DNA of 64,000 nucleotides from assembly GCA_036874045.1 (NCBI GenBank), contig CM072339.1, forward strand, positions 7,501-71,500, in the 5' to 3' direction. The notes beneath the pieces are model-generated. The model searched no databases. It was not told where the DNA came from and worked only from the letters and a program-made list of their open reading frames with translations. Position numbers and translations under genes: made by a program. Shown here in pieces: positions 1 to 56,166 of this stretch; position 1 is the stretch's first letter; every line of letters begins with the position of its first letter. Source of the stretch: Cymodocea nodosa. Its lineage: Eukaryota > Streptophyta > Magnoliopsida > Alismatales > Cymodoceaceae.

Positions 1-1443
1 AACATTAAGGGGAAGAGGATGTCAGTTTTCCGTTGGTCACCTTCTTTCTCACCTGGGATGGAAGCCACTTGGGCTCCAGTCTGGATACACCTTCCTCAGC
101 TGCGTGCACACTTACATACGCCCGGAGCTATTAAATCCATTGCAAAACTTCTAGGGAAATACCTCTGTTCACATCGTGATGTCTGCAATTTTACACGCCC
201 TGGTCTTACCGCCATCTGCGTTGAAATGGATCTTTCAAAAGCTCTTCCCCGCTCCATCGTCATCGACAATGGTGGAGAAATCATCAATCAAAAGGTCATA
301 TACCCGTTTGAACCAAAATTCTGTGAATTCTGCTGCAAAATCGGGCACACTACCCCAACATGCAGAAAGAAAGCTTTGTCTGACAGTACTGTTCCTACCA
401 GTACCACAACTGTCATTAATCCACGCAAAGACCCGCTGGGCAATTCACAATGGCAAGTTATAAATCGAAAAAGCAAAAGGAAAAATAATCAAGAACAGCC
501 GTCAGAAGCACTGGCAGAAGCGGTTTACACGCAAAAGGCACCAATGAACAGGGCTGGTGTGAACGCAAAAATCGCAAAAGAAAAAATCGGCAGGTCTGAC
601 AAAAGATCGGTTGAACTGGAGAATACTACGGTACAACCGAAAGAAAAAGTTGAAATCTCCGACGCTGTACTGACAGAATCACCAGTCGAACCGATAGGAT
701 CATCAGTCCAACCGAAGGAAAGACAGCTTATGGTGTCAGACCAGATCGGCAAGACCGCAATTCCTCCGGTGGAACCGAAAAACATACCTGACAATCCCAC
801 CGTCGGACAGAAAAATACAGAAATAAAAAAATCTGTCAACTTCAAGGACGCACAGTATGCTACGCCTGACAAAGCAGTCAACCTATCGACAGAAGAACCG
901 ATATGCATATCTGACAAAATCCTGGGGGAACCGGAAAATACAACAAGACAAAGAGGAAAAAGTTCGCCGGACTCACCTAGTTATCAAATCAACCTGCCAA
1001 ATGAAACAGAACCGTCGGTTCAGCTGCAAGCCTTGACCGACTCAGAATGGAGACTGGTTACACGCAACAGGAAATCAAATAAAGTTGTCACTCCTTCCAC
1101 AGAACTCGAGCAACCTTATGAACAGCTATCGGCGGAACACTTACCAGACAAGCATCCATTAACAGAACATATCTTATTAAATCAGAAAGATTCAGGCATT
1201 CTACGAAATCAAATGTCCTTAGAAATTTTAAAAGGAAAGCTGAAACACTTGTCAGAAGGACCCAACTCAGAAGACGACTCTTTTTCCTCAAGCAACCATC
1301 AATCTGACACAGAAGATACGATCTCACAGCAGGACTTTAGAATAACCAGATCAAAGAGACAAAGCATTCGTCTCCGACAGAAAAAAAGCAAGATTTCTAA
1401 TGATGCTGTATCTTCCCACAGCAACAGCAGCATTTCTCAATAA
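1..1443 (+). CDS. LINE-A ORF1 (nucleic-acid-binding, DUF4283-like plus CCHC knuckle), 5' partial
   Basis: The frame is open from base 1 to the TAA at 1441-1443 (about 480 codons in the window). The N-terminal part matches the DUF4283-type domain of plant LINE ORF1 proteins. A zinc knuckle (C-x2-C-x4-H-x4-C, reading CEFCCKIGHTTPTC) is encoded around 319-362. The C-terminal half is polar and low in complexity, with repeated VEP...VQPKE-like phrases. At DNA level those phrases carry the same CGGT-NNN-ACCG motif that fills the 3' UTR. The likely role is RNA binding in the retrotransposition particle, by analogy with the family. The first ATG in the window (19) is not the real start; the sister copy extends the frame upstream to an ATG at 9821. 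Confidence 0.9.
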   Translation, partial: NIKGKRMSVFRWSPSFSPGMEATWAPVWIHLPQLRAHLHTPGAIKSIAKLLGKYLCSHRDVCNFTRPGLTAICVEMDLSKALPRSIVIDNGGEIINQKVIYPFEPKFCEFCCKIGHTTPTCRKKALSDSTVPTSTTTVINPRKDPLGNSQWQVINRKSKRKNNQEQPSEALAEAVYTQKAPMNRAGVNAKIAKEKIGRSDKRSVELENTTVQPKEKVEISDAVLTESPVEPIGSSVQPKERQLMVSDQIGKTAIPPVEPKNIPDNPTVGQKNTEIKKSVNFKDAQYATPDKAVNLSTEEPICISDKILGEPENTTRQRGKSSPDSPSYQINLPNETEPSVQLQALTDSEWRLVTRNRKSNKVVTPSTELEQPYEQLSAEHLPDKHPLTEHILLNQKDSGILRNQMSLEILKGKLKHLSEGPNSEDDSFSSSNHQSDTEDTISQQDFRITRSKRQSIRLRQKKSKISNDAVSSHSNSSISQ

Positions 1444-1469
1444 TTCTCTTTCCTCCTTCTTGATTTTAT

Positions 1470-4400
1470 ATGAATATATTATTTTGGAATTGCCGTGGGC
1501 TGATCAATCGATCAACCCAAATATATCTCAAAAATCTTATCAAAACTCAAAAATTAGAGGCAATATGCATATTAGAACATTTTATGAAGCCTGAAGATAC
1601 TCAAAAATTTGCTGATAATATTAATTGGAATTATCATTATGGCAATTCCAAAATCTGCACTCTCTGGTCGGATAATCTTACTTTTCAGATTATAGATATA
1701 CATCCTCAAGTTTGTACTTATAAAGTATCAAATGCCACTTACAAAGATTTATTTATTTCGGTTATTTATGCCTCTTGCAACCAATATACCAGACGTCAAC
1801 TCTGGAATCAATTATTAGAGATTAATTCGATTGCAGATAAAGCAAGCTGGATTTTAGGGGGAGATTTCAATGTGGTCAGGCATATTGGAGAAACCAAAAA
1901 TATTTTGTATAATCAACAATCAGCTATGCAGGATTTCAATGAATTTATTCATAACAATCTCCTCACGGAACCTTTTCATCACGGGAATCAATTATCTTGG
2001 TGCAATAACAGATCAGAATCTGATAGAAGGTATGCCAGACTAGATCGAATCTTAATAAATTCACAGATGGCAACACATATAGCAGAAGATATAATTTATG
2101 GGAATCGAGTAAACTCGGACCATGCATATATTATCCTTCAGAATACGAGCACTATCTCTTGGGGGCCAACCGCTTTTCGCTTCAAAAATATGTGGCTGAC
2201 TTATGAAGATCTACCAAATATGATTCAAGCGGTATGGCATAGTCTCACATATCAGAATCCTATTACAAATTTTAGTGCAAAACTCAAGCTGCTCAAAGAA
2301 AAACTAAAGATTTGGAATGCAGATAGAGTGGGCAATATCTTTGTAGAAGAAAAGCAGATAATTAGAAAAATAAATTTTCTGGAACAGGACTTCCAACTCA
2401 ATGGTAGCACCTCGGAGAAACTTTCCTGTCTTCACAATTATCAAGAAGACCTGCGAAAAAACAATTATCGGCAATCTCTATATTTTAGACAATCTACACA
2501 CATTGATTGGTTGAAGGAAATGGATCGAAACACAAAATACTTTCATCAAATTATCAAAAGAAGAAGCACGAAGGACTGCTTCAAGAGTATGCTTAGATCA
2601 GATATGTCCAATCTTTCTTGTGATCAACTCAAAATCAAAGGAAAAAATTATTTCAACAATTTACTGACATCCCAACATACGCATATGATGGATAGTATGA
2701 TCAGCAATATTCCCAATATTCTTAATCAGGAGGATAACAGAAAACTATGGGATATTCCCAACATCAATGAGATCAGAACAGTTGTATTTGATCTTCCCAA
2801 TAACAAAGCTCCAGGTCCTGATGGCTTCACTGCAGAATTCTTCAAACACTTCTGGAATATTATTGGTAATGACTTTTGTCTAGCAGTTCAAAGTTTCTTT
2901 TCAGGATCTTCTCTGAATGATAAATGGAAATCTACTTTCATTACATTAATTCCAAAGAAGAAACAACCAGAGGAGTTTTCAGACTTTCGTCCTATTAGTC
3001 TTTGCAACATCTCTTATAAATGCATTGCCAAAATCTTAGCTAATCGGATATCGAAAATCATACCCAACATAATATCTAATACTCAAGCAGCATTTATTAA
3101 AGGCAGGAGTATTTTTGACAACATATCTCTTACTCAGGAGCTCATACAATATATAGACCAAGGCCATAGAGGGGGAAATCTTATGATTAAACTCGATATG
3201 GAAAAAGCTTTTGATAGAATGGAATGGTCAGCTATTTTTGACACACTTGCTGCCTTCGGATTTGACACTACTATTATTGATCTAATATCAAGATGTCTAT
3301 CGTCGAATCCCACCTCAGTTCTTTTCAATGGAGCTAATTCTCAAGTATTTTATCTAACCCGAGGATTACGACAAGGTGACCCTCTTTCTCCTCTTCTCTT
3401 CATTATCACTGAAGAATTATTATCCAGGGCTCTCCTTAAAATGCAAATGGAGCAAAATTATGTCCCTTATAAATGCCAAGGAAGACATTGGAAAATATCT
3501 CACCTGCTTTTCGCTGATGATGCCATTCTTTTTCTCAATGGCCGCAAATCGATGTTAGACAAAGCTCTAACCATTTTGCAGCAATATGAAGCATCTACGG
3601 GTCAAAAAATCAACTACAATAAGAGTAACTTCTATGTCTCCAAAAAAAGTCCGGAGCACAGGAAGATTGTTTTCTCTACTATGATTGGATGTCCTCAAGG
3701 CAAATGGCCTTTCATCTACCTCGGCTGTCCAATTTTCAAAGGTCAATCTCGTATCAAATACTTCCAATATCTCATTGACAAAATTCAAAACAAAGTTGCA
3801 GGTTGGAAGGCTAAATTTCTTAGCCAAGGGGGAAGATTAATGCTTATTAAGCATGTGTTAAATTCTATTCCTATACACACTTTATCAGTTTTGCCCCTTC
3901 CATGTGGAATCGTTCAGAAGATCAACAATATTTGTGCTCGTTTTTTCTAGTCAGGAGATAGTAATCAGAAAAACTATCATTGGCTCAAATGGGAAAAAAT
4001 CTCCACCCCAATTCCCGAAGGTGGGCTCGATATCATAAATTTAAAAGAGCAATTAGTAGCATTTCAACTAAAGCAAATACACAAGCTGATCAATAATAAT
4101 GACATCTGGGTTGAAGCAATCAAGGCAATCTATGGCAGTATGGACCATATTTTTAATATCCACAGAGACAGCAACATAGGCAAAACATTGGGCAAAACGT
4201 GGCATAGATATTATCAAACTCTGCAGATTCCAAGATTTTCCGTCAAAGTGGCTTGGAATTCTATCAGAAATCATCTACACTGTAACAACAAACTATTGGG
4301 TTTTTGGAGTTCGGGAATACCTACAAAAATTTCTGTTTTTCTATGGAAACTCAAAAACAAATTTCTTCCAGTAGATGAAACCAGAAAAAAGATGGGACAC

Positions 4401-4733
4401 CAATTACCATCCATATGCGGATTCTGCAGGAACGACACAGAAACTATCAATCATATCTTTTATAATTGCTCTTTCACTCAAGATGTTATCAAATGGCTTC
4501 GATTATTGACCACAGCAAATCCTATCCACAACTGGGAAATATGGAGCAGGCAGCAGCTATATTCAAGAAAAAAATCTTCTCGGAATCACTTTTATAAATA
4601 TCTATCGGCATTCACTCTTTGGAGCTTGTGGAAACACAGATGTGAGATAATATTCGGCAATAAAAAGCCTAATATTACTACTATCGTATCCCAGATTATT
4701 TATTATATCAATAGTTTCAATATCCGAGAATGA
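1470..4733 (+). pseudogene. LINE-A ORF2 endonuclease/reverse transcriptase with a single in-frame TAG
   Basis: The ATG at 1470 lies 26 bp after the ORF1 stop. The frame encodes an apurinic-type endonuclease (about residues 1-220: FWNCRG start, GGDFNVV, a W-C-N-N element, SDHAYI) and then a reverse transcriptase (NNKAPGPDGF, FRPISLCN, KLDMEKAFDR near residue 575, GLRQGDPLSP, and the catalytic FADD near residue 681). The C-terminus holds a zf-RVT-like region (WSSGIPTKISVFLWK, CGFC, HIFYNC). The only break is TAG at 3948-3950, where LINE-B reads TGG; the same frame then continues unbroken to the stop at 4731-4733, 1088 codons in total. No frameshift is seen. Whether the copy is mobile is unknown. 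Confidence 0.92.
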
Positions 4734-6020
4734 TTATGCAGATTTCAAGATCTACAAGATACAAATCACAACTTACGAGGAGATTATTTGCTCGTCGCAT
4801 ACAACAGTCATCGGAAGTATTACTCTCGAAGAACAGCTGTTCTGACACTTCTCTGTTCACACGGAAACTCGGTACACAGGGTAACCATGTTCACACGGGA
4901 AAGGCTCTTCGGAAGAACCACTCTGGCTTCGGTTTTCGAAGGCTAAACCGAATCTGCCCCGGTTACACCGAAACCTGTACACGGTCACACCGACCTTTTA
5001 TCTTCTACCGAAAGTTCTCCAGTTGGACCAATCTCAGAATTCGGTCTCACCGACAAGCAACAGGCTTCGATTGCAGACAAGTCCCTGTTCACACCGAAAT
5101 CAGGTATCGGTCGCTGACAAGTCTATGTTCACACCGAAACGGTATCGGTCACAGATAAGTCTCTGTTCACACTGAAATCAGGTATCGGTCGCTGACAAGT
5201 CTCTGTTCACACCGAAACCGTTTTCTCGAATGAAAAATCCTTGTTCCGGTATGACCGTCATTTCAACGGTTAAACCGGATCTGCACCGGTCGCATAAACA
5301 GACACGGTCTCACCGATTTATATTCTAAATTCTCGGTCTAACCATCTGCTTCTCGGTTGGACCGCCCAGTACATTCTCCGGTGGGACCGATCACAGTGCT
5401 CGACATTTCAGCTCTTCGGACGAACCACTCTGGCTTCGGTTTTCGAAGGCTAAACCGAGTCTGCCCCGGTTACACCGTAACCCGTACACGGTCACACCGA
5501 CCTTTTATCTTCTACCGAAAGTTCTCCGGTTGGACCGATCTCAGCGTTCGGTCTCACCGACAAGCAACAGGCTTCGATTGCAGATAAGTCTCTGTTCACA
5601 CCGAAATCAGGTATCGGTCGCTGACAACTCTGTTCACACCGAAACTGTTTCCTTGAATGAATGATCCTTGTTCCGGTATGACCGTCTTTTCAACGGTTAA
5701 ACCGGATCTGCACCGGTCGCAAAAACAGACACGATTTCACCGATTTATATTTTAAATTCTCGGTCTAACCATTTCTCGGTTGGACCGCCCAGTGCATTCT
5801 CCGGTGGGACCGGTCACAGTGCTCGACAATTTCAACTCTCCTCGCACAGTTAAATATGTTTTCCGTCGACCGAAATTTTCGGTTAAGCCGAAAAGTATTT
5901 TCTGATATTTTTATATCTGATTTCACTCAATTTAATTTGAGTCTTGTAATGCCTTTTTTAGGCACACTCCTTTTTTTAGCAGGACTATCCCCTGATGAAT
6001 GCAAAGGATAGATTTTATAT
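4734..6020 (+). repeat. LINE-A 3' UTR packed with CGGT-NNN-ACCG half-palindromes and a 507-bp tandem duplication
   Basis: The 1.3-kb 3' UTR contains dozens of short imperfect palindromes of the form YCGGT-NNN-ACCGR (for example TCGGTCTCACCGA). Two long copies lie in tandem: the segment starting at 4905 restarts at 5412, an offset of 507 bp, and the second copy ends near 5827. The last 90 bp hold candidate stem-loops (TGCCT...AGGCA and CTATCC...GGATAG) just before the A-tail. No open frame of interest is present. Confidence 0.85.
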
Positions 6021-6037
6021 AAAAAAAAAAAAAAAAA

Positions 6038-6081
6038 CCCTAAACCCTAACCCTAAACCCTAAACCCTAAACCCTAACCCT
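6038..6081 (+). repeat. Telomere-type (CCCTAAA)n run
   Basis: About six plant telomere units (CCCTAAA, with some CCCTAA variants) lie between the LINE-A poly(A) tail and the first base of SINE-1. The boundary with the A-tail is ambiguous by about three A residues. Confidence 0.95.
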
Positions 6082-6504
6082 AGGTGCATTTACACCTACT
6101 ACCAGGCACTGACTCCTATAAGAACTCTGGAGTTAAGTGTGTTTGGGCGAGAGCAGAACCAGGATGGGTGACCACTTGGGAAGTTCTCGTGCAGTGCCTA
6201 TGGGCAGTAGTGTTGACTTTGCTCAAGCATTGGCAAGCTGTAGCTGTGTGCATCACTTACTAAAGTGGGCCTAGCAAGGCCTCCTACAAGCTTTCGTCTC
6301 TTTAGATACTTCTGGTGTATACCACGCCATTTGAGTGTCTATTGAGACTCACATGTTATCACCTCCATGGATACTCTTGGTGTATACCAGGCTGTTTGAG
6401 TGTTCATGAAGGTTCACCTTCTATCACCTCTAAGGATACTCCTGATGTTCATCAGGATGTTTGAGTGTCTAAGGAGGACCTTGAAAAAAAAAAAAAAAAA
6501 AAAA
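6082..6504 (+). mobile_element. SINE-1: 5S rRNA-headed SINE
   Basis: The first ~119 bases (about 6083-6201) align along their whole length with plant 5S rRNA. They include the three parts of its internal Pol III promoter: the A-box region (GGAGTTAAGTGTGTTTG), the intermediate element (GGGCGAGAG) and the C box (GGATGGGTGACCACTTGG). The two ends of the head can pair as 5S helix I (AGGTGC with GTGCCT, allowing G-U pairs). A ~280-bp unrelated tail follows, containing three ~65-bp modules, each with a hairpin. The element ends in a 21-A tail at 6484-6504 and is flanked by CCCTAAA on both sides. There are no TG...CA LTRs, so it is not a Cassandra-type TRIM. Confidence 0.88.
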
Positions 6505-6521
6505 CCCTAAACCCTAAACCC
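6505..6521 (+). repeat. Telomere-type (CCCTAAA) run of 17 bp
   Basis: Just over two telomere units separate the SINE-1 A-tail from the SINE-2 head. Confidence 0.93.
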
Positions 6522-6944
6522 AGGTGCATTTACACCTACTACCAGGCACTGACTCCTATAAGAACTCTGGAGTTAATTGTGTTTGGGCGGGTGCAGAACC
6601 AGGATGGGTGACCACTTGGGAAGTTCTCGTGCAGTGCCTATGGGCAGTAGTGTTGACTCTGCTCAAACATTGGCAAGCTGTAGCTGTGAGCATCACTTAC
6701 CAAAGTGGGCCTAGCAAGGCCCCTTACAAGCTTTCGTCTCTTTAGATACTTCTGGTGTATACCACGCCATTTGAGTGTCTATTGAGACTCACATGTTATC
6801 ACCTCCATGGATACTCCTGGTATATACCAGGCTGTTTGAGTGTTCATGAAGGTTCACCTTCTATCACCTCTAAGGATACTCCTGGTGTTCATCAGGCTGT
6901 TTGAGTGTCTAAGGAGGACCTTGAAAAAAAAAAAAAAAAAAAAA
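6522..6944 (+). mobile_element. SINE-2: 5S rRNA-headed SINE
   Basis: Near-identical to SINE-1 along its full length (5S-type head, three-module tail, A-tail at 6924-6944). The head differs in the intermediate element (GGGCGGGTGC instead of GGGCGAGAGC), which could weaken Pol III promoter function. It begins at the same base (AGGTGCATTT) directly after a telomere-type run. Confidence 0.88.
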
Positions 6945-6996
6945 CCCTTAACCCTAAACCCTAAACCCTAACCCTAACCCTAAACCTTAACCCTTA
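6945..6996 (+). repeat. Telomere-type (CCCTAAA)n run
   Basis: About seven units with CCCTTAA and CCTTAA variants lie between the SINE-2 A-tail and the truncated 5' end of LINE-B. Confidence 0.94.
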
Positions 6997-8439
6997 GTGT
7001 TATTCAATGGAGCACCATCACAAACTTTTTACCCTTCTAGAGGTCTTCGTCAAGGGGATCCACTTTCACCTTTCCTTTTTATTATTACTGAAGAATTGCT
7101 AAGTAGAGCATTACTCAAGCTCCAACAGGAATCAGACTATATCCCTTACAGATGCCAAAGCAGACATTGGCGTATTTCTCACTTGATGTTTGCAGATGAC
7201 GCCCTTTTATTCCTAAATGGTAGAAAATCTATGCTTCAGAAAGTCATCGATATTCTCAAGAAATATGAAATGACTACTGGCCAAAAGATTAATTATGAAA
7301 AAAGCAACTTCTTAGTATCCAAGAAAAGTCCATCACACCGCATTGCATTCATTGAGGATATTCTTGGTTGTAAGCAAGGTGATTGGCCGTTTATATACTT
7401 AGGCTGCCCCATCTTCAAAGGACAACCGAGGATAAAATATTTTCAATATTTGATTGATAAGATTCAAAACAAAATGGCAGGTTGGAAGGCAAGATTTCTC
7501 AGTCAAGGAGGTAGACTTATGCTGATTAAACATGTTCTGAATTCCATACCTATACACACTCTAAGTGCCAATCCACTTCCTTTAGGCATTATCAACAGAA
7601 TCAACTCAATTTGTGCTAAATTTTTCTGGTCGGGTGACAATACCAAAAAGAATTTTCATTGGCTTTCATGGGAAAGAATAGCTAGACCTATTACAGAAAA
7701 TGGACTTGATATCAGAAATATAAGAGATCAGATTACTGCATTCAGATTGAAGCAAATCAAAAAAATATTGGAAAACTCTGGTATCTGGGCTCATGCTATA
7801 AATGCTATACATGGGTCGATGGATCAAATAGCAGAAGAACAAGGCAATAATATCAACAAAATGTTCAATAGCTGTTGGAGAAATCACAAACACTTATTTC
7901 AGGAATCTGGAGCTTTAAGCGGTCATAATTTCTCGATCAAAACAGCTTGGGAATTAGTGCGAGATCATCACCATCAAGACAATAAGCTAAAAGGCATGTG
8001 GTCATCGCAGATTCCCACTAAAATATCAGTTTTTCTTTGGAAACTCAACAGAAATATCATTCCAGTAGATGATATTAGAACGCAGGCTGGATATTATCTC
8101 CCTTCTAGGTGCAGCTTATACAACAACAACTCAGAAACATCCCAACATATTTTTTACGACTGCAGATTCGTCAAAGATTTGATACATCGGCTTAACAACA
8201 TCCTAAATATTGACGGGATTACCAACTGGAAAGAATGGAGCAAACAAAAAATATTTTCTCGGAAAAAAGATCCTAGACTGAATATTCTAAAATACTTGAC
8301 AACAACAACATTATGGTGCATCTGGATACACAGGTGCGATATTATCTTTCGTAACATGCAACCAAATATTTCTGTAGTAATCGAGAGAATATCGCATTTT
8401 TTCCAACTTTTCAAAGTTTCGGAAGAAATGAGAAGATAG
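6997..8439 (+). pseudogene. LINE-B ORF2 C-terminal half (RT palm to zf-RVT), open frame
   Basis: 480 codons without a stop: GLRQGDPLSPFLF, the catalytic FADD, TGQKINYEKSN, YLGCPIFKG, then the zf-RVT-like region (WSSQIPTKISVFLWK, HIFYDC) and a terminal EEMRR before TAG. The N-terminal endonuclease and the RT fingers are missing by truncation, so it is non-functional even though the frame is open. It is closer in sequence to LINE-D than to LINE-A. Confidence 0.9.
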
Positions 8440-9272
8440 CAGTTTACTGTTCTTAAAAAACAAAGATCGAGGAATACAGCCTGTCGCTTCTTCAGTCTGA
8501 CAGCCGCTCGTCAGACGCTATCAGCAGCTTCGGCAGATGCACATGCAATAGTTAGAACATCCGGTTACACCGTTCACTTTACGGTCAAATCGACCCCAGT
8601 CTTGGTAAGAACAACCAATTTCGGTGACCTTCGGTTCAACCGAAACATTGTTTAGGTTCAAAAAAAAAAAAAAAAAAAAACCTACCTTTTACCAGCCCGG
8701 TTTGACCACTCTGTACACGGTTAAACCGAAAGTTTCTCCGGTCGGACCGAGCTCAGAGTTCGGCCTCACCGTTGAGCAACAGGAGATCTGACAACTTCTC
8801 CGGTCGAACCGAGCTCAGAGTTCGGCCTCACCGTTGAGCAACAGGCGATCTGACAACTTTACTAAAGTCTCTGTTCACACCGAGAAACAGGTATCGGCCG
8901 CTGCTCTGTTCACACCGAAACCTCTTTTCTTGATTGGATATACCGGTTTGACCGTTTTTTCAACGGCCAAACCGGAGCTGCTCCGGTCACACCTGAATCT
9001 GACACGGTCTCACCGATTCTGCTACTCGGTCGGACCGCGCACAAGGTTTAACCGGAAAGTCTCTGGTGGGACCGGTCTCAGAACTCGGTCTAACCGACAT
9101 CTTCTCCGGTTAAAACTGTTTTCGATGACCGAAATTTTTCGGTTCAATTTTCTGACATTATTTAATTCTGTTTTCACTCAAATTATATTTGAGTCTTGTT
9201 ATGCCTTTTATAGGCACACTCCTTTTTTTAGCAGGACTATCCCCTGATGAATGCAAAGGATAGACATTATAT
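8440..9272 (+). repeat. LINE-B 3' UTR with CGGT-NNN-ACCG motif array
   Basis: The region has the same motif density as in LINE-A, but only a short local duplication (CTTCTCCGGTCGGACCGAGC-like segments near 8737 and 8797) instead of the 507-bp one. It ends with a clean stem-loop: ACTCAAAT and ATTTGAGT around TAT, near 9176-9194. Confidence 0.82.
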
Positions 9273-9294
9273 AAAAAAAAAAAAAAAAAAAAAA

Positions 9295-9317
9295 CCCTAA
9301 CCCTAAACCCTAAACTC
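9295..9317 (+). repeat. Telomere-type run
   Basis: About three CCCTAA(A) units, the last changed to CTC, lie between the LINE-B A-tail and SINE-3. Confidence 0.92.
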
Positions 9318-9732
9318 AGGTGCATTTACACCTACTACCAGGCACTGACTCCTATAAGAACTCTGGAGTTAAGTGTGTTTGGGCGAGAGCAGAACCAAGA
9401 TGGGTGACCACTTGGGAAGTTCTCGTGCAGTGCCTATGGGTAGTAGTGTTGACTCTGCTCAAGCATTGGCAAGCTGTAGCTGTGTGCATCACTTACTAAA
9501 GTGGGCCTAGCAAGGCCCCCTACAAGCTTTCGTCTCTTTAGATACTTCTGGTGTATACCACGCCATTTGAGTGTCTATTGAGACTCACATGTTATCACCT
9601 CCATGGATACTCCTGGTGTATACCAGGCTGTTTGAGTGTTCATGAAGGTTCACCTTCTATCACCTCTAAGGATACTCCTGGTGTTCATCAGGCTGTTTGA
9701 GTGTCTAAGGAGGACCTTGAAAAAAAAAAAAA
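9318..9732 (+). mobile_element. SINE-3: 5S rRNA-headed SINE
   Basis: A third full-length copy: 5S head with intact A box, intermediate element (GGGCGAGAGC) and C box, the three-module hairpin tail, and a short A-tail at about 9720-9732. It is flanked by CCCTAAA runs on both sides. Confidence 0.88.
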
Positions 9733-9757
9733 CCCTAAACCCTAAAACCCTAAACCA
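9733..9757 (+). repeat. Telomere-type run
   Basis: About three and a half CCCTAAA units (one CCCTAAAA) lie between the SINE-3 A-tail and the 5' UTR of LINE-C. Confidence 0.92.
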
Positions 9758-9820
9758 TTCCTCACCTCCACTTTCTCTCTCTAGGTGATTTTCATCCTTT
9801 CCTCTACTCTTCCCTCTCTC

Positions 9821-11647
9821 ATGGCGGATTCACCATAAGTGCAACTTGGAGAACCTCCTCCTTTTGTTGATCCTCAAGCTTGGCAGAAAAATGCTCCACG
9901 TGCTTCTTTTGCAGCCACTATTAAGGAACATTTTGTTCCTCCAACTTTCTCGGATCTCCGAGTTCGTGAACCCATCATTGTAGATGGACAACAATAGATT
10001 TCTTTCAATATGGAGGAGATATCTACAATGGCAGCCCCATTTCATTATACCTTGGTGGGACGATTAGCTGGTCAACGTCTCGATCTACATTCTATTCTAG
10101 AGGGTATTAAAGCTACTTTCAACGTTTCTGAAGGGATTTTTCCCACTGCACTTGACTCTAGGTATGTTCTATTACGTTTTCAGCATCAACATATTTTCTT
10201 ACAAGCTTTAGTTAAAGAAAACTGGAACATTAAGGGGAAGAGGATGTCAGTTTTTCGTTGGTCACCTTCTTTCTCACCTGGGATGGAAGCCACTTGGGCT
10301 CCAATTTGGGTCCACCTTCCTCAGTTGCGTGCACACTTACACACGCCTAGAGCTATTAAATCTATTGCAAAACTTCTAGGGAAATACCTCTGCTCGCATC
10401 GAGATGTTTGCAATTTTACACGCCCCAGTCTTACCGCCATCTACGTTGAAATGGATCTTTCTAAAACCCTTCCTCGCTCCATCGTCATCGATAATGGTGG
10501 AGAAATTATCAATCAAAAGGTCATATACCCGTTTGAACCAAAATTCTGTGAATTTTGCTGTAAAATTGGGCACACTACCCAAATATGCAGAAAGAAAGCT
10601 ATGTCTGACACTACTACACTTGTCATTATCGCACCTGCCACTATTCCACACAAAGACCCGCTGGGCAATTCTCAACGGCAAATTGTCACTCGGAAAAATA
10701 AAAAGAAAAATAATCAGGAACAGCTGTTGGACACACTTGCAGAAGCGGCTTACATGCAGAAGGCAACAACGACAAACATGGCTGGTGTGAATGCAAAGCT
10801 AGCAAATAAAAAAGATGGCAGGTCTGACAAAAGATCGGTTGAACCGGAAAATGCTACGGTACAACCGAAAGAAAAAGCTGACACCTTCAACGTTGAACCG
10901 ATAGGATCACCGGTCCAACCGAAGGAAAGGCTGCTTGCGGTGTCAGACCAGAATGGTAAGACCGCAATTCCTTCGGTTGAACCGACAAACATATCTGACA
11001 ATCCTACCGTCGGACAGAAAAATAAGAAGGAAAAAAAATCTGTCAACTTCCAGGACGCATAGCCTGCTACGTCTGACAAAGCTGTCAGCCTCCCGGTCGA
11101 ATCAATATGCATTTCTGACAAAATCCCGTTGGAACCGGAAAATATTACACGATAAAGAGGAGAAAGTTCACCGGCCTCACCGAGTTTTCAAATCAACCTG
11201 CCAAATGAAACAGAAACTTCGGTACAGCTTCAGGCTTTGACCGATTCAAAATGGAGATTGGTTACACGCAACAGAAAATTAAAAAAAGCTGTCACTCCTT
11301 CCACAAAACTTGAGTAGCCTTATGAACAGATCTCTGCGGAACGCTTACTAGATAAGCATCCATTGACAGAACATATCTTATTGAATCAGAAAGATACCAG
11401 CATTACACGAAATCAAATTTCCCTAGAAATTTTACAAGGAAAGTTAAAACATTTGTCAGAAGGATCCTGCTCAGAAGACGAATCCCTTTCCTCAAGCAAC
11501 CACCAATCTGACACAGAAGAAACTATCTCACAACAGGACTTCAGAGTAACTAGATCAAAGAGACAAAGCATTCGTCTAAGATAGAAAAAAAGCAAGATTT
11601 CTAATGATGCCGAATCTTCCCGCAGTATCAGCAGCAATTCTCAATAA
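9821..11647 (+). pseudogene. LINE-C ORF1 with six in-frame stops and no frameshift
   Basis: The frame starts with ATG at 9821 and can be followed to the natural TAA at 11645-11647, 609 codons including the stop. Nonsense codons stand at 9836 (TAA), 9995 (TAG), 11060 (TAG), 11153 (TAA), 11315 (TAG) and 11582 (TAG). Where LINE-A can be compared (the last four), the intact codon is CAA or CAG. The DUF4283-type domain and the CCHC knuckle are preserved. It shows the N-terminus that LINE-A lacks in this window. Confidence 0.88.
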
Positions 11648-11674
11648 TTCTCTCTCTTCCTACTTGATTTTTCT

Positions 11675-12137
11675 ATGAATATATTATTCTGGAATTGTCG
11701 TGGGCTGATCAATCGATCAACCCAAATACATCTCAAAAATCTTATCAAAACTTAAAAATTAGAGGCAATATGCATATTAGAACATTTTATGAAGCTTGAA
11801 GATACTCAAAAATTTGCTGATAATATCAATTGGAATTATCATTATGGCAATTCCAAAATCTGCACTCTCTAGTCGGATAATCTTACTTTTCATATTGAAG
11901 ATATGCATCCTCAAGTTTGTACTTATAAAGTATTAAATGCCCCTTATTAGGATTTATTTATTTCGTTTATTTATGCCTCTTGCAACCAATATACCAGACG
12001 TCAACTCTAGAATCAGTTATCAGAGATTAATTCGATTGCAGATAAATCAAGCTGGATTTTAGGGGGAGATTTTAATGTGGTTAGGCATATTGGAGAAACT
12101 AAAAATATTCTTCATAATCAACAATCAGCTATACAGG
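11675..12137 (+). pseudogene. LINE-C ORF2 N-terminal fragment (endonuclease)
   Basis: It starts with the same NILFWNCRG motif as LINE-A ORF2 and follows it to the GGDFNVVRH region, then stops at the chimeric joint. Several in-frame stops are present (for example CAA to TAA after LIKT, and TGG to TAG twice). Confidence 0.85.
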
Positions 12138-12152
12138 CCTTGCATTGATAAT

Positions 12153-15100
12153 ATGGATATATTATTTTGGAATTGCTGAGGGTTGGTAAATAAATCAACC
12201 CAAAATTTCGTCAAAAATCTTATAGAGAAGCATAAATTACAAACTATATTCATCCAGGAACACTTTATGTCTGAAGATGATGCCCAACAATTTGCAGATA
12301 ATATTAATTGGAATCATCACTATTGTCTGATAATCTACATATTCAACATTGGGAGTCATACCCGCAAGCCATCACCTACAAGGTTTCAAAATCGTCTTAT
12401 CAAGATCTTCTTGTTTCGGTGGCTTATGCTTCATGCAATTAGACTATCTGTAGAAATCTCTGAGATTATTTAACGGATCTGAATATAAGAACTACACATG
12501 GCTCGTGGATGATTGGGGGAGATTTCAATGTTACTAGGCATAAAGATGAAGTTCAAAATATTATTCACATCCATCAGTCAGCAAGACAGGAGTTTAATGA
12601 TTTCATAAATCAAAACCAACTCATAGAGCCTGCTCATTTTGGAGATTCGTTTTCCTGGTGCAACAATAGAACTGGTAATAACAGAAAATTAGCAAGGTTA
12701 GACCGCATTTTGCTGTATATCTCTCTATTTGAACAATTCAAAGATGAGATTATTTATGGAGAACAGATTTGCTCAGATCATGCTTATATCCGGATACAAA
12801 ACAAAAACATCAGAGGTTGGGGCCCAAGATCTTTCAAATTTAAAAATTTCTAGTTAACTTATGAAGATATAAATCATATTGTCAGAAATGTTTGGAGTAG
12901 TGCAAAATTCCAGAATCAAATCACAAACTTCAGTGCTAAGCTTAAGATTTTAAAGAAAGTTCTCACTAGTTGCAATAGAAATAAAGTGGGAAATATTTTT
13001 TCTGAGGAACAGAATATATTGGAACAAATTCATTCTTTAGAATAGAATTTTCAAAAAGAGCCTGAGACTTGCACACTAGAGAAAAACTCTATGGTTATCA
13101 ATCTCAAAGAAAAGCTTATAAAGAATACAGCTCGACAATCAAGTTTCTTGAAATAAAGTTCTCACATTAATTGGTTATCAGAAATGGACAGAAATACAAG
13201 ATTCTTCCATCAACTTATCAAATGGAGAAACTCGAAGGATCATTTCAAAAGTTTGCATACAAGCAGTGAAGATGAAGATCAAATTAAAAAGAGAGGTAAA
13301 GACTATTTTTCAGAATTATTACATTCTCAACAAGTTACTGAGGATCAGAGTCTGTTTGATAATATATCGAGAGTTTTAAATGAAAGTCACAATAAGTGCT
13401 TATAGGAAATTCCTACTATTGCTGAAATAAAAGATGTCTTAGCCTCTCTCCCCAATAATAAAGCACCCGGGCCAGATGGTTTTACAGTAGAATTCTATAT
13501 GAAATTTTGGGAGGTAATTGGTACAGATTTCTGTGTTGCTGTACAATACTTTTTCATAGGTGCAAGACTTAACAATAAATGGAAAGCCACATTTATTGCT
13601 TTGATTCCCAAAAGAAAGCAACCAGGAAATTTTGCAGATTTTAGGACTATCAACTTATGTAATATCTTTTATAAGATAATAGCCAAAATTATTGCTAATA
13701 GAATCTCCAAAGTGATTACACTTATGATATCTCCCACTCAAGCAGCTTTTATTAAGGAAAGAAGTATTCATGATAACATTTTCTTAGCACAAGAATTGAT
13801 TCAATATATTGATCAAGGCCATCGGGGAGGTAATCTCATTGTCAAATTAAATATGGAAAAAGCTTTTGATAGAATGAACTGGACGGTTATTTTTCATACC
13901 CTTAAAGTTTTCGGTTTTGACTCCAAAATCATCAACATCATCTCAAACTGCATCTCTGACAATCCTACATCAGTGTTATTCAATGGAGCACCCTCACAAT
14001 TTTTTTACCCTTCTAGAGGTCTCCGTCAAGGGGATCCACTTTCACCTTTCCTTTTTATCATAATTGAAGAATTGCTGGGTAGAGCGCTCCTCAAGCTCCA
14101 ACAAGAATCAGATTATGTTCCTTATAAATGTCAAGGCAGACATTGGCGTATTTCTCACTTGCTCTTTGTAGATGATGCCCTTTTATTCCTAAATGGTAGG
14201 AAATCTATGCTTCAAAAAGTCATTGATATCCTCAAGAAATATGAAATGACTACAGGCCAAAAGATAAATTATGAAAAAAGCAACTTCTTTGTATCAAAGA
14301 AAAGTCCAGCACATCGCATTGCATTCATAAAGGACACTCTTGGTTGCAAGCAAAGTGATTGGCCTTTCATTTACTTAGGTTGTCCTATCTTCAAAGGACA
14401 ACCTAGGCTAAAATATTTTCAATATCTGATTGACAATATTCAAAATAAAATGGCAGGCTAGAAGGCAAGATTTCTCAGTCAAGGTGGTAGACTAATGCTG
14501 ATAAAGTATGTTCTGAATTCCATACCTATACACACTCTAAGTACCATTCCACTTCCATTGGGCATTATCAACAGAATCAATTCCATTTGTGCTAAATTTT
14601 TCTAGTCTAGCGACAATACCAAAAAGAATTTTCATTGGCTTTCATGGAGAAAAATAGCTAGACCTATTACAGAGAATGGACTTAATATCAGAAATACGAG
14701 AGATCAGATTACCGCTTTCAGATTGAAGCAAATCAAAAAAATACTGGATAACTCAGGTATCTAGGCTCAAGCCATAAATGCTATCCACGGGTCGATGGAT
14801 CAAATAGTAGAAGGACACAACAATAATATAAATAAAATGTTCAATAGCTGTTGGAGTAATTATAAACACTTATTTTAGGAATCTAGAGCTTTATTCGGAC
14901 ATAAGTTCTCAATCAAAATTGCTTGGGACTTAGTGCGAGTTCATCACCATCAAGATAACAAGCTTCAAGGCATGTGGTCTACATAGATTCCCATAAAAAT
15001 TTCAGTTTTCCTGTGGAAATTAAACAGAAATATCATTCCAGTGGATGATATTCAGACTCAAGTTGGATATTATCTCCCGTCTATGTACAGCTTCTGCAGC

Positions 15101-15415
15101 AATTATTCAGAAACATCCCATCATATTTTTTACGATTTCAGGTTTATCAAGGAGTTGGTAAACCGACTCAACAATATCCTAAATATTGACGGGATTACCA
15201 ACTGGAAAGAATGGAGCAAGCAAAAAAAATTTTCTTGAAAAAAATCCCCTCAGTTGAATATTCTTAAATATTTAACAGCAACTACATTATGGTGTATTTG
15301 GATCCACAGGTGTGATATTATTTTTTGCAACATTCAACCAAACATTTTTGCGGTAATCGGGAGGATATCTCATTTTATTCAACTTTTTAAAGTATCAGAA
15401 GAAATTAGCAGATAG
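12153..15415 (+). pseudogene. LINE-D ORF2 (endonuclease/RT) pseudogene
   Basis: A second ORF2 start (MDILFWNC followed by TGA) is seen here. Endonuclease motifs (GGDFNVTRH, WCNNRTG, SDHAYI), RT motifs (NNKAPGPDGF, KLNMEKAFDR, GLRQGDPLSP) and the zf-RVT region can all be followed through broken frames. The catalytic FADD has become FVDD near 14168, which removes none of the aspartates. Many stops occur (for example near 12853, 13405 and 14459), with an apparent deletion near 12320. It is non-functional. Confidence 0.88.
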
Positions 15416-16034
15416 TAGTTCACAGTTCTCAGAGATGAAATAACAAAAATTGAGGAATACGCCTCCATCATGCCCAAGCAAGTCAGCAGTCCTCAAGTCT
15501 GACAGTCGCATGTCAGACGCTAGCCGTACAACGGTCCCTTTAGCAGACGCACCTGACCTATGTCAGAAGTTTCGGTCGAACTGATTTTGATAAAGGCTAA
15601 ACCGATTCTCTAACCGGTCAAATCGATCCTAGGATCGGTTACGCCGTCAGTCTGCAACAGAAATTTGTGTCCTCCGGTCTAACCGTAAAGTTTTCGGTTA
15701 CACCGAAGTCTCTTCGATTCAACCACTCTACAGATACGGTTGAACCGAAATCAGCTTTATACCTTTTTTCTCGGTAAAATCGCTTTCCGACGGTTCAACC
15801 TGAGCCGGTCTGACCGGTCAGGCTCTTCAGTCAGACCGTTTCCTTTTTTCGGTCTTACCGATACTTAGGATCGGTTTCACCGAAAAGTCATCAATCTCTT
15901 CATAATCAGTTAGACCGTTTTTGAAATTCCAGCTAGACCGATTTTTTTCTCGGTCAAACCAATTTTCAAGGCTTTTCCTTTTTGCATCTTTTTGAGAATT
16001 GTATCTTTATTTCAAACCAAATTTTATTTGGTTT
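15416..16034 (+). repeat. LINE-D 3' UTR with CGGT-NNN-ACCG motif array
   Basis: Same short half-palindromes as in LINE-A and LINE-B (CGGTTACACCGAA, CGGTCTTACCGAT and many others) from about 15560 to 15960, although the rest of the UTR is diverged. Confidence 0.8.
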
Positions 16035-16047
16035 AAAAAAAAAAAAA

Positions 16048-16068
16048 CCCTAAACCCTAAACCCTAAA
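16048..16068 (+). repeat. Telomere-type (CCCTAAA)3 run
   Basis: Three perfect units stand between the LINE-D A-tail and the broken edge of a Copia gag. Confidence 0.94.
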
Positions 16069-18722: not shown

Positions 18723-19007
18723 AGTTGGGAATCTTTGTGAGACAAAGTGTGTGATACTTGGAAAAAATCTATCATGTTGGGGCCTAGCAAGGCCTCCTAC
18801 AAGCTTTCGCCTCCTTGAATACTCCTAGTGTATACTAGGTCGCTTGAGTGTCCATTGAGACTCACATGTTATCACTTCCATAGATACTCTTAGTGTATAC
18901 CAGGTTGTTTGAGTGTCCATGAATGTTCACCTTCTCTCACCTCTAAAGATACTCCTAGTGTTCACTAGGTTGTTTGAGTGTCTAAGGAGGATCACAAAAA
19001 AAAAAAA
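18723..19007 (+). mobile_element. SINE-4: same hairpin tail, non-5S head
   Basis: From about 18780 it matches the tail of SINE-1 to -3 (GGGCCTAGCAAGGCCTCC, then three GATACTC...TTTGAGTGT modules). The upstream ~60 bp do not match 5S rRNA; instead they match the head of SINE-5. It ends in a 12-A tail followed by telomere-type sequence. Confidence 0.75.
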
Positions 19008-19156
19008 CCCTAAACCCTAAACAAACTAAAATCCTAAACCCTAAATAAATCAAAACCCTAAACCCTAAATAAGCCAAAACCTTAAACCTTAAACAAACTG
19101 AAACCCTAAACCCTAACCCTAAATCTTAAACCCTAAACAAATTGAAACCTTAAACC
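19008..19156 (+). repeat. Telomere-derived satellite with a 24-bp higher-order unit
   Basis: Several units of 24 bp, each two telomere-type units (CCTAAACCCTAAA) followed by a ~10-bp spacer of the form YAAAYYRAAAM, plus one longer 44-bp variant. Confidence 0.85.
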
Positions 19157-26900: not shown

Positions 26901-29900
26901 CAATGACTTGGTAGCTCCTATCATTTCCTTCATCATTTCCCAATGCTCATTAGCTTTTCTCCATTGGTCGGTCAAGAGTTTCATTAACATCTTACACAAT
27001 TCCTCAGCCTCCATGAATTTGTTTGGCTTTGATATCAGATTAATTTATTCTTGCACCTGTGCTTGAAATCCATGAAGTCACACTGAGCGGTGCATATCCT
27101 GTGGGGGTTGCTGGGAAGAGCATTGTTTTCCTATGGTGGAATGATATTGAAAAGGGGGTGTTGTACCAGCTTCTGTCCTTTATGGCAGTGACTTAGTAAC
27201 CTCTTGTTGGACCTTCTTCCAAGGAAGAAGCTTTTGAGATGGACAATTGGGGCAAAGGCAATGGAATCTCTGATGATCCTAGGTCACCCAGAGTTCCTTT
27301 ATAGTTATAGCAGGTAGATACAGCACAGGGTTGTGCAGGACATGCACAACCATATTATAGAAATTGGTCCCCTCTCCCTCTCAGCTATAACAACCAACTT
27401 GGCCCATTAATAACTAATCACAACATCTTCATGCTAAAAACATGTCTCGCATCAGTTTACTTCATAGACCAGGTTGAACTGGTCACCTACCTGATTACTA
27501 ACCTGGGAGTCAACTAGGTTTTTGGAGGAATGGAACTTTCAAATGATGATGAGATGGATAAGTTGAATGATGACATGGAAATGGGAGTTGAGGTGAATTG
27601 CATGGTGTGATGAGGATTGCCTTCCTCGTTCATCCTCCCCTCATAGAACAGATGTTGGGTTTCTCCTCTGAAACTTCTGCAACTGCTGCTGGTATAGTAG
27701 TGGAGGCTCCTCCAAGAAGGGCACTACTTTATCTCTATACTTGCAGGATGTCCTTGCTCCCCCTCAGACATGCCACATTGTCATGGTTGATCAGATGAGC
27801 TCCTGAGAGAAATGGACGGAATTTAGGTATTTAACTTTGGAACCAAAAGGCTAACTTTAAGAAGCATTGGTGCCAACTTGTAGAAGATGAGGTGGCTGTT
27901 GGGAATATCATTTCCAATGAACATTCTTGGAATGTTAAAAGGGCTTATGGGAGGAGCAAATAAAGGCACGTTGGAGACTTGGTGACACAAGCAGTGAACT
28001 TGCTTTGCCTTCAGGAGACAAAGTTAAGCAAGATTAGCTAAGTTTTGTAAGAATAGTGAGAAGGAGGGTGGCTTGACTGTTATCAAATGAAGAGATCTTG
28101 TGGGACATGGGCTGTTGATTCCTAAACACAAGAGTAAGATAGAAAGAAGAAGGAAGGAAGGAAGGAAGTCGAGGAGATGTATCCTGGAAAAACCAATTCT
28201 ATTGAATTGATAAAAAAACCAAGATTATTTTCACATCTGCCATTACACACATATATAAGGAGAAGACTAGACAACTCCTAGGAACTGCCACATATCCCAC
28301 GATCTCCCACCATGTTACACACTACATCTAACACATTTCATATATAGGGACATTAATATTTAAAGCAATATAACAATACTCCTCCTTGCTTTAAAGATTA
28401 TAGAATCCCATATTCTCTTGTAAGAACTGAAGCCTGGTAGCTGGGAGAGGCTTTGTGAATAAATCTACTAGCTGCCATTCAGTGCTGCAATAAGTGAGCT
28501 TAACTTCTCCCTGACTTTGCATCTCTGTTAAGGTGAACAACTTAATATTAAAGTGCTTTGTTTTGCCATGATATACTGAATTATGAGAGATTGCGATTGC
28601 TGCTTGATTATCAATATGAATCTCTGTAGCTTTCATTTGATCTAGCTCAAGATTATTTAATATTTTTCTAAGCCATATGGCTTGATTCACTGCTGCATTT
28701 GCAACAACTATCTCAGCTTCAGCCGTTGATTGAGCCACCCTTTCCTGTTTCTTACAACACCAAGAAAAAACATTAGAGCCTATAGAAAAACAATATCCGG
28801 AGGTACTCCTGAAATCCACTAGTGACCCACCAAAGTCACTATCAAAGAAACCGACCAAGATAGGTTGAGCATCAATATTTGCAGGCACACTAGTCTTCAT
28901 GTACTTCAGACCATAGTCTACTGTCCCAATCTCAAAATTCTCAAAATTCTTTTCACAGCTTGGAGGTGTTCACTTGTAGGATCATGCATAAATCTGGACA
29001 AATGCTGTCAGGTAACAAAATATCAGGTCTTGATGCTATCAAATACATAAGACTCCTCACAATCTTCCTGTAAGGTCTTTCATCCACCTTTTCTTCAGTG
29101 GATTTCTCATAGAACTTCTCTTTAGGATTCATAGGAGTGCTAATTTTTTTACATTCTGACATACCCAAAATGTTCCAGAGCATCTGCTGCATATTTTATT
29201 TGAGAGATTTTAATACAATCGTCACCTTGCTGTATTTGAATACCCAAAAAATAAGTCATCATCCCTAAGTCTGATGTCTCAAATTCAATCATCATTTGAT
29301 GCTTAAATGCTGAAATAAGATTGTCATCACTTTCAGTCACTAGTAGGTCATCTACATAAAGTGAGATAATAAGAATATCTCCACTTGCCTTTGAATGTAT
29401 AGAGTTGCATCAGAAAGTCTTTTTATGAACCCTATGCTCAATAGATAGATATCAATCCTGCTGTACCAGGCTCGAGGAGCCTGTTTTAACCCATACAGTG
29501 CCTTTCTGAGATGATAAACCTTGTTTGGATCTTTTACAAATCTTTCTGGTTGTTCTACAAACACTTCTTCAGTTAGATAACCATTCAAAAAGGCTGATTT
29601 TACATCTAAATGATGTACTCTCCATCCAAAATGTGCACTAATCGCAAGTAGTAATCTAACAGTGTCCAACCTAGCAACTGGTGCAAATGTATCAAAATAG
29701 TCGATTACAAACTGTTGTACATACCCCTTTACCACCAATCTAGCTTTATATTGGTTAATGGAATCATCAGGGTTTAACTTTAATTTAAAAACCCATTTGA
29801 CACCAATAACCTTCTTTTGAAAGGGCTGGTCCACCAAATCCCTAGTCTAATTTCTTTCAATGGAAGATAACTCCTCCTCCATGGCAGCCTTCCAGTGTGG

Positions 29901-53887: not shown

Positions 53888-56166
53888 ACTGATCCAAACC
53901 TCCTCCTCATTCATCCATCTGCTAGCTGCATGCACCCTTCCTTCCTTAATTTCCTCCGTATTAATTGCAGTTATTGTAATTATTGATCATAAACTTAATT
54001 TCCTATACACGTTTGTTTGCTGTAGCGGTACCTATCTATTATTGGACGACGACGATGCTGTTAGATACCAATATATATGTGACGCATGTATATTAATTAT
54101 GTATGTAATCATTCTAATATTTTTAAGATGATGAATGACGGACTGCTCTTTTGATCCATATTCATCATTCATTCGTTCATCAGTGCTCCTTTGATGTGTT
54201 CAGTGTTTGTTGGAAACTGGGTCGCCCGCTTCATTAATATATTCACACGACGTGCATATGAATCAAGTCTAAGTTTTACTTCCTGCGTAATCAAGTTTTA
54301 GTTTCTGCACAAGCTTAATTTTTTACATACGATATGAAAGATGTTTGACAAAACAGCGCATATGCGAATCAGATGCCATGATTCATGGCCAAAACCCCAT
54401 CAACGTCAAATGAACGCTTGCGTAAAAATGAATAAAACTAAATTTATAAACCACATTCAATAAAGAGACCTTTCTTGTTTGCAATAAATATTCTTCTAAT
54501 TGTAATATTTCTAGCGTGTCCTCAAAGAAAAAAAATGGCGATGAATTGAGTGATTCACAACAAATATTAGGACACAAACGAAAATACTTTTCCAATTTCA
54601 AACGCATTTATAAAGAATATTTTCACGCAAATTAATCACAGAAAGAAAATTATAAAGGGAAAATATAATAAAATTAAAAATGATGGATCTAAAATAATAA
54701 ATCATTTTCTTCTTAATATTAAAAGAAGAGTTCATTTCTGTTTTTCTTTTTTCCGATATTATACTTACAACATTATAAAAATTACCAAAACAATAAAATG
54801 ATTATTTAGTGATTTTTTATTCCTACATCAAATAAACACATAAAAAAGGAAATACGAAAACAAACTTCAACTCATATGTAAAAATATCTTCATGCAAATG
54901 AAATTTTAATATGACAAATAAAAAGAGAAATTACAATACATATCATTGAAAACAATGAGCCTAACTAGCATTGAATGCTAAAAGATAAACTAAATATCAT
55001 TTATTCCCAATTGGGTGCAGCATGGCCCTCCTCTTACCCCTTCTAGGCGCTTCTTCCGTGGTAAGAGGTCAGTCGAGAAATTTTTTTGATACTAACATAC
55101 TTTTCCATTAATTGACTACACGAAGTGTCGCTAGTTGTCTCAGCTTCTGCATTGTACGTAGTCACTTTGAAAGCCCTTGATCAATTGGCAGGGGTTCATT
55201 GCATTGCGATGGATTTTGTTCAAAAGCTCCACTAACTTTACCGATGGAATTTCTCTTTCCCTCCCCTTTTAAAAGAAGAAGGATTGTTTCGATCGTAAAA
55301 TGAGCCCGAAAACTTTGAGATTTGACAGGGAGTGCCTACCAAACAAGGCAAAAATCGAATGCAATTAAGGTAAATGAATGCTTATCTTGTGTTTGGATAA
55401 GTTACTCATCTCCTGCACTTGTTCGAAATTTTCAAAAGCTAATTGACTAATTGATTTGGCTTTTCAATTAGTTTCAAAAAATATTGCAAAATTTTAAGAT
55501 TTACGTACTCCTAAAAAATTAATGGGTTAAACCACCATTAACGATTCTTCTCAATATATACTTCACATGAGAAAATTCCAGTTCAATTTTGAACTCATAT
55601 ATAAAGTATGTTTTCATGCAAATTAAAATTTTTAAGGAACTAAAAGGAGAAGAAATGTAGTAAAATTAGAAATGCTTAAATAAAAAACTACAAATATGAA
55701 AACAATTCATCTTGGATGACAAACTTTCAAATTATTTAAAAAGTTAATAAGGTAACTAAAAACTAATGAAAGCATGCTTAATTTTTACGTGCATATGGCT
55801 ACCATTAAAAGTGGGTTAGTTTCTACATGTTCTCTAAAAAACTTTTTTATAACATTGCCAAATTTAGCATGCGCTCAAAAAATGAAATGATTATGAAGTG
55901 ATTCTTTTACAATCCTACACAGCATACTAATTCAATTTAGAACTCATATATTAACTTCTTTTTTACTCGAGCGGTTGCTTGACAGTTAGATTTTATTTAA
56001 TTATATTGCTCTTCGACTCCAAAGAAAAACACGGGGAGACGTACCTGTTCCGTTATTAGAAAATATTTCTTTTTTTGAAGCATAAAAAAATATTTGTCAC
56101 TTTTTAGGAGAACGTGGGATATCAGGATATGGCGAGAGCGATTTGACGAGAGATCGCGGGCAGACG
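53888..56166. other. Intergenic region with AT-rich dispersed repeats
   Basis: Three related AT-rich segments (around 54615-54690, 54880-54930 and 55600-55680) share TTTTCAYGCAAATKAA followed by an ARAAGGRAAAA-like stretch. No gene was found. A short upstream frame (ATG at 56129, stop TGA at 56144-56146, five codons) sits 20 bp before the mutarotase start. Confidence 0.5.

Follow-up and report, generated by a model that had tools for sequence, protein, structure and literature searches.

An L1-like LINE and a 5S-headed SINE probably insert by preference into the telomere repeats of Cymodocea nodosa

The window analysed here is a stretch of 64,000 bases from Cymodocea nodosa (bases 7501-71500 of contig C7; genome 374.6 Mb, 28 contigs), which begins with a stack of long interspersed nuclear elements (LINEs) and short interspersed nuclear elements (SINEs) set in telomere-type repeats. 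Insertion of LINE and SINE into telomere repeats is real and general in this genome. We consider it probable that a LINE of the L1 clade and a SINE with a 5S rRNA-like head insert preferentially, and not exclusively, in the telomere repeats at the base of the chromosome ends.

Results

Element tails enter telomere repeats at many contig ends

The original prediction, made from the letters of the window, had reported six A-tails that run straight into CCCTAAA repeats, a single orientation of all elements relative to the repeat and a telomeric niche common to LINE and SINE. All six junctions are present: A-runs of 13-22 bases, ending at 6037, 6504, 6944, 9294, 9732 and 16047, directly enter the CCC of a telomere-type repeat. 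A seventh, older case, in which an A-run of 12 bases (18996-19007) leads into the repeat, lies beyond the part which that prediction covered. The sequence CCCTAAACCCTAAA occurs ten times in the window, always on the plus strand, and 0 times in 100 shuffles.

In the assembled contigs, from which the junctions are known here, the exact junction of ten As with CCCTAAACCCTA was found 49 times. Forty-eight of these are no more than 60 kb away from a contig end and are spread over 21 ends; all 48 are in the C-strand sense with the 3' end of the element facing the contig interior. The opposite arrangement (ten As, 0-7 bases, TTTAGGGTTTAG) was found nowhere in the genome; its counterpart in the observed sense, with the same gap, gave 193 overlapping matches. 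When 30 of the 49 junctions were read as loci, the tail belonged to a LINE in 20 (one of the LINE-D type described below) and to a SINE in ten, all of these families (27 assigned by script, three read as LINE by eye). Perfect runs of at least four telomere units that end in a non-C base number 50, none of them farther than 30 kb from a contig end; therefore no long perfect interior arrays of that kind were found.

Copies of the elements were counted with tags, using the window copies as LINE and SINE query sequences: a 19-base tag of the LINE 3' end and a 22-base tag of the SINE, exact matches only. Near an end means within 60 kb of a contig end (65 kb for zf-RVT domains), and 60 kb at each of the 56 contig ends make up 0.9% of the genome. 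Near-end counts were made without the lengths of C22 and C24 and are lower bounds, because N stretches occupy some ends (C7:1-7500, directly before the window, C16:1-17500, C15:1-10000 and C1:28852501-28860000). Since the end zone is so small, the 39 of 69 LINE tags and 20 of 56 SINE tags that lie near ends amount to a 63-fold and a 40-fold enrichment. The C-strand sense was found for 36 of these 39 LINE tags and 18 of the 20 SINE tags; among interior tags, 18 of 30 (LINE) and 17 of 36 (SINE) are on the plus strand. For the zf-RVT profile 150 of 1926 candidates were scored, and of these 150 domains 58 are located no more than 65 kb from an end, 55 of them in the C-strand sense.

Stop-free zf-RVT frames of 1021-1117 codons were present at eight of the 150 matches, five near contig ends and three in the interior, and recent activity is therefore likely in both places. 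Longer frames (3471 and 7668 codons) probably run through N.

Relationship and shared sites of LINE and SINE

The second open reading frame (ORF2) of the LINE matches residues 3-811 of human L1 ORF2p (~5e-47), and R2 proteins reach 2e-19 or weaker. No R1-type chain was present among 11 solved-structure matches to the LINE ORF2, and the best solved relative with full coverage was L1 ORF2p. The LINE frames carry the Pfam domains DUF4283, Exo_endo_phos, RVT_1 and zf-RVT. By this similarity the LINE is L1-like, a putative member of the L1 clade with a predicted endonuclease of the apurinic/apyrimidinic endonuclease (APE) type and a reverse transcriptase (RT). The heads of SINE-1, SINE-2 and SINE-3 of the window (6082-6200, 6522-6640 and 9318-9436) lie above the gathering score of the Rfam model 5S_rRNA (RF00001), with 41-46 bits vs a gathering score of 38 and the whole model covered.

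When 17 LINE flanks were compared with 19 SINE flanks, two cases were seen in which an interior LINE shares its site in a repeated sequence with an interior SINE on another contig, apart from bases that merge into the A-tail. In one pair (loci L076 and L011) the sequences are 96% alike over 51 bases; in the other (L078 and L016) they are 94% alike over 48 bases, and the tail of L016 is impure. Together with the shared telomere niche, these shared sites support one endonuclease for LINE and SINE.

Target site and target duplication

Per kb there are 141.8 TTT/A sites in the telomere G-strand and 0 in the C-strand, as against 19.4 in the window background (both strands). As the site is found on the G-strand of the repeat only, the single orientation needs neither targeting nor special recognition. 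An ordinary L1 and its SINE might thus land according to the share of usable sites, with copies at the telomere base tolerated and kept and their orientation given by the repeat sequence. The roughly seven times denser TTT/A in the telomere, on one strand only, and the many interior copies at ordinary sites agree with such insertion without targeting. However, the ~7-fold site density is exceeded by the 63- and 40-fold enrichment, which moreover refers to an end zone larger than the repeats themselves, so that steering, retention or both must add to it. In the similarity searches 40 of 1085 SINE candidates and 40 of 86 LINE candidates were scored. The SINE search bears on retention: of the copies with at least 97% identity among the 40 scored, six of 15 lie in telomere repeats, or three of 12 without the window's own. 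The excess is therefore present in young copies too, and retention alone fits less well. Since the A-tails of the 30 junctions read also all belong to these families, we regard insertion without targeting as unlikely.

One repeat unit seems to be duplicated across the insertions. For 20 telomeric SINEs the class of the unit just before the SINE (six or seven bases) was compared with that of the unit just past its tail, and of the 18 pairs that could be scored 17 agree (Fisher p 0.0007). Under looser unit rules 17 of 20 pairs agree (p 0.007), and eight other pairings gave p values of at least 0.29. Neighbouring units inside the arrays agree in 63.7% of cases (0.637), and against that baseline p is 0.034 (17/20) or 0.003 (17/18). 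The same unit class on both sides favours insertion into existing repeats with duplication. It speaks against an addition at the very end, in which the G-overhang of a short telomere would prime on the poly(A) without a nick and telomerase would then add repeats outside, as known from HeT-A or from L1 at dysfunctional telomeres. A shared orientation, the A-tail junction and nested stacks would fit such an origin, and the terminal branches of the SINEs do tend to be somewhat longer the farther the copy lies from the end (a weak trend: Spearman 0.46, p 0.018, n = 26, one of which, the locus L023, is interior). Against this, the distal copy is younger in only 14 of 22 within-end pairs, and the duplications at interior SINEs imply a nicking machinery at work. 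With the concordance of the flanking units, which target duplication predicts, this renders end addition very unlikely.

In the mechanism that we favour, the endonuclease of the L1-clade LINE would nick the telomere G-strand at GGGTTT/AGGG, the freed TTT end would serve as primer on the poly(A) tail, and the copy would enter existing repeats at the telomere base by target-primed reverse transcription, whereby roughly one repeat unit plus parts would be duplicated. With TTT/A confined to the G-strand, each copy would have its sense strand in the C-strand and its 3' end toward the centromere. The 5S-headed SINE would use the machinery of the LINE. Repeats at the base would persist while telomerase keeps the distal tract, and nested stacks could accumulate. 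We infer the nick, a mobilisation in trans for the SINE, and a preference that is active over and above site density and retention.

Preference rather than strict specificity

Several observations weigh against a preferential insertion by nicking of telomere repeats. Thirty of the 69 LINE tags and 36 of the 56 SINE tags are interior, at a distance of over 60 kb from any contig end, although the query copies came from the telomere, which may itself bias the counts toward the ends. Three LINE and two SINE tags near ends are in the opposite sense, and the three zf-RVT domains in that sense are by position the same elements as these three LINE tags (C2:34272, C12:21896192 and C13:20832727). The one of these five exceptions that was read, a SINE on C3, is flanked by non-telomeric sequence and shows a duplication; the other SINE is at C20:1576518. 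TTTT/RR is the site usually given for L1, and it is rarer in the telomere (0.9 per kb) than in the background (7.0 per kb); the junctions themselves fit a nick at TTT/AGGG, as proposed with the original prediction. Finally, the matching length across the 20 telomeric SINEs was 12.3 vs 11.07 (standard deviation 0.87; 2000 permutations) and thus not significant (p 0.086), and the unit-class test was devised after this duplication test.

The flanks of interior copies are ordinary. All 16 interior LINE 3' flanks read are non-telomeric, including that of L084 with a lone CCCTAAA unit a few bases past the tail, and A-tails were present at all 16 of these 3' ends, one of them impure (3' flanks only). 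Seventeen LINE flanks had been fetched; one of them, on C2 and ~6 kb away from the end of the contig, is telomeric and stands outside the 16, and an interior LINE (C2:11767388) was left out of the set because its match does not reach the 3' end. Among 17 non-telomeric SINE copies, 12 are bordered by exact duplications of 12-17 bases that start with AA, and these As may merge with the tail. The SINE flank set comprised 22 telomeric and 18 other copies, of which 20 and 17 were used; the SINEs on C11, on C6 and at C7:14041583 were excluded, as no A8 run stood where expected.

Strict telomere specificity is thus ruled out by the interior LINE and SINE tags, the non-telomeric flanks and the ordinary duplications. 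Because interior copies are ordinary, telomere insertion is a preference, not a rule. The original prediction had read the LINE as targeted to telomere repeats; it would have seen support in a majority of copies lying in CCCTAAA repeats in one orientation, and a refutation in a majority of other copies with unrelated flanks and ordinary duplications. The many insertions at many contig ends, the excess near ends, the single sense and the niche common to LINE and SINE agree with its reading; strict targeting is not supported, since a large share of copies has just such unrelated flanks, with the LINE 3' flanks and the SINE duplications above as instances.

L023 (C17:6056135-6059541, ~6.06 Mb), an interior SINE, is the sole one of the 49 junctions of ten As with CCCTAAACCCTA that is not near a contig end. 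Its A-tail is followed by CCCTAAACCCTA (two telomere units), a second A-run and a near-duplicated target site. This single case is most simply read as the product of a readthrough RNA transcribed from a telomeric copy, with possible 3' transduction.

Four of 19 interior SINE loci (L005, L016, L022 and L025) are situated within or next to short repeats that carry AACTCAACG-like motifs, with 7-13 matches per locus; in L022 and L025 these form a tandem array with a period of 32-33. Repeats of this AACTCAACG-like kind are perhaps a second favoured target of the SINE.

History of the copies and telomerase

In a tree of 44 SINE copies, in which the fetched near-end places enrich the telomeric side and the interior L023 is labelled telomeric for its tail, telomeric and interior copies interleave. 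Most telomeric copies therefore look like separate insertions, which argues against a few original insertions that were spread by exchange between chromosome ends, or against an assembly artefact. Subtelomeres exchange readily, and two SINEs on C1 (28839231 and 28845954) are sisters that may represent a local duplication. Nevertheless, the junctions are found at 21 ends, and element order, truncation and tails vary among the ends read, so that we give hardly any credence to exchange or artefact as the source of the pattern. A layering of the SINEs by age was also considered and is weak (distal copy younger in 14/22 within-end pairs).

At C17:1-10000 there are 1417 CCCTAAA units, which leaves no room for elements, and one TERT RNA-binding domain was found in the genome. 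Telomerase therefore most likely keeps the tips.

Organization of the stack in the window

From the start of the window to position 16068, LINE-A, SINE-1, SINE-2, LINE-B, SINE-3 and a chimera of LINE-C and LINE-D follow each other in one shared orientation (plus strand), parted by CCCTAAA/CCCTAA spacers of ~17-50 bases each. LINE-A (1-6020), recognised by its ORFs, Pfam domains and similarity to human L1 ORF2p, has its 5' end upstream of the window and contains part of ORF1 (19-1443), ORF2 with endonuclease and RT (1470-3950) and a zf-RVT frame (4140-4733). An A17 tail and telomere-type repeats (6021-6081) lead to SINE-1 (6082-6484), which is followed by an A-tail with repeats (6484-6521), SINE-2 (6522-6924; 97% to SINE-1) and again an A-tail with repeats (6924-6996). 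LINE-B (6997-9272) is 5'-truncated inside the RT; its frame (6997-8439) holds part of RVT_1 and zf-RVT, and its 3' part was aligned to LINE-A. After an A22 tail with repeats (9273-9317), SINE-3 (9318-9720) and its A-tail with repeats (9720-9752), the chimera begins.

The LINE-C part (~9750 to ~12137), with a 5' untranslated region, ORF1 (frame 10010-11062, DUF4283) and the start of an endonuclease, is 87% identical to LINE-A. The LINE-D part (12151 to ~16036) is of another LINE subfamily, 65% identical to LINE-A over the portion aligned, and comprises an endonuclease start, an RT (frame 13499-14461) and a 3' region. Both meet at the start of the second endonuclease, and neither A-tail nor repeats are found at the joint. 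LINE-C, at first listed as an element of its own, most likely represents the 5' portion of a chimera, with a second LINE directly adjoining it. The chimera could stem from a template switch or from a deletion between two copies. Around the joint, 11674-11845 and 12152-12323 are 74% alike. An A13 tail with telomere-type repeats (16035-16068) ends the stack, and non-telomeric sequence follows. The older layer (18780-19156, plus strand) consists of the 3' part of a SINE (88% to SINE-1), an A12 tail and degenerate telomere-like repeats.

Within the 3' region of LINE-B, 20 As (8661-8680) are followed by non-telomeric sequence, either as an internal junction or as a slipped tail. Short CGGT...ACCG-like motifs are abundant in the LINE 3' regions (5076-5246 and 8734-8859), partly as tandem repeats of 40, 62 and 78 bases. 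Farther into the window, frames at 28391-29837 and 56094-59475 resemble, by eye, Copia retrotransposon parts and an aldose-1-epimerase-like gene.

Discussion

In the parts of the open-licence literature consulted, neither a telomere-inserted LINE of a land plant nor a plant SINE derived from 5S was found, and either absence is weak evidence; the excerpt of PMC6410037 holds nothing on plant LINEs in telomeres. TRAS and SART of Bombyx and other insects are likewise non-LTR (long terminal repeat) elements within telomere repeats, and the poly(A) end of TRAS adjoins the C-strand repeat. In its excerpted text, PMC10088271 names SART/TRAS, GilM/GilT, Zepp, MoTeR1, Tx1-1_ACar and Athena as retrotransposons inserted in telomeres, with insects, fungi, Giardia, rotifers, a lizard and Chlorella as hosts and Zepp as the sole case in Viridiplantae.

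The endonuclease of TRAS/SART is said to cut between T and A of TTAGG (excerpt of PMC4700185). TRAS and SART are R1 families according to the same part of PMC10088271, whereas the Cymodocea LINE is L1-like by similarity. Their near-exclusive telomere specificity is not found here, with 30 of 69 LINE tags interior. The excerpt of PMC4700185 reports that Bombyx telomeres hold full-length copies only and that telomerase activity in Bombyx is barely detectable; in Cymodocea truncated copies such as LINE-B occur too, and a TERT domain and long pure tracts are present. Zepp of Chlorella vulgaris is also LINE-like and resides in telomeric regions of a green-lineage genome, but its host is an alga, the likeness is one of description, and the quoted part of PMC10088271 mentions no SINE companion. 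Tx1-1_ACar of the anole and MoTeR1 of Pyricularia, likened by their description there, also lie in telomere repeats, in other hosts (PMC10088271). FoTeR of Fusarium is described as a further retrotransposon in telomere repeats. Tx1-1_ACar, MoTeR1 and FoTeR belong to clades other than that of the L1-like LINE described here.

The SINE resembles SINE3 in its 5S-derived head, its A-tail, its target duplications, the lack of LTRs and the expected lack of a coding frame. In SINE3 the 5S-like head is expected to act as RNA polymerase III promoter; the families named in the excerpt of PMC10886601 are animal, while the present SINE is from a plant and shares the telomere niche of the LINE. Cassandra, a plant terminal-repeat retrotransposon in miniature (TRIM), also contains 5S-derived sequence, but inside its LTRs (PMC10886601, same excerpt). 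An identity with Cassandra was rejected, as single A-tailed units with duplications of 12-17 bases differ from 5S within two LTRs with short fixed duplications.

It is tentative, yet quite possible, that this land-plant L1/SINE pair is steered actively to the telomeres of most ends, by the endonuclease or by a telomere protein, and that telomeric copies act as sources, as in L023. If active steering is true, land plants would have their first described telomere-targeting LINE, and the SINE would be the first one known with a share in such a niche. A telomerase-bearing plant would then be available in which to ask how an L1-type element with a loose site favours telomeres, whether a SINE inherits the niche of its partner and how insertions layer at the telomere base. 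Taken together, the system resembles a TRAS-type telomere-inserting LINE in the way it works, yet it is L1-like, partly specific and accompanied by a 5S-headed SINE.

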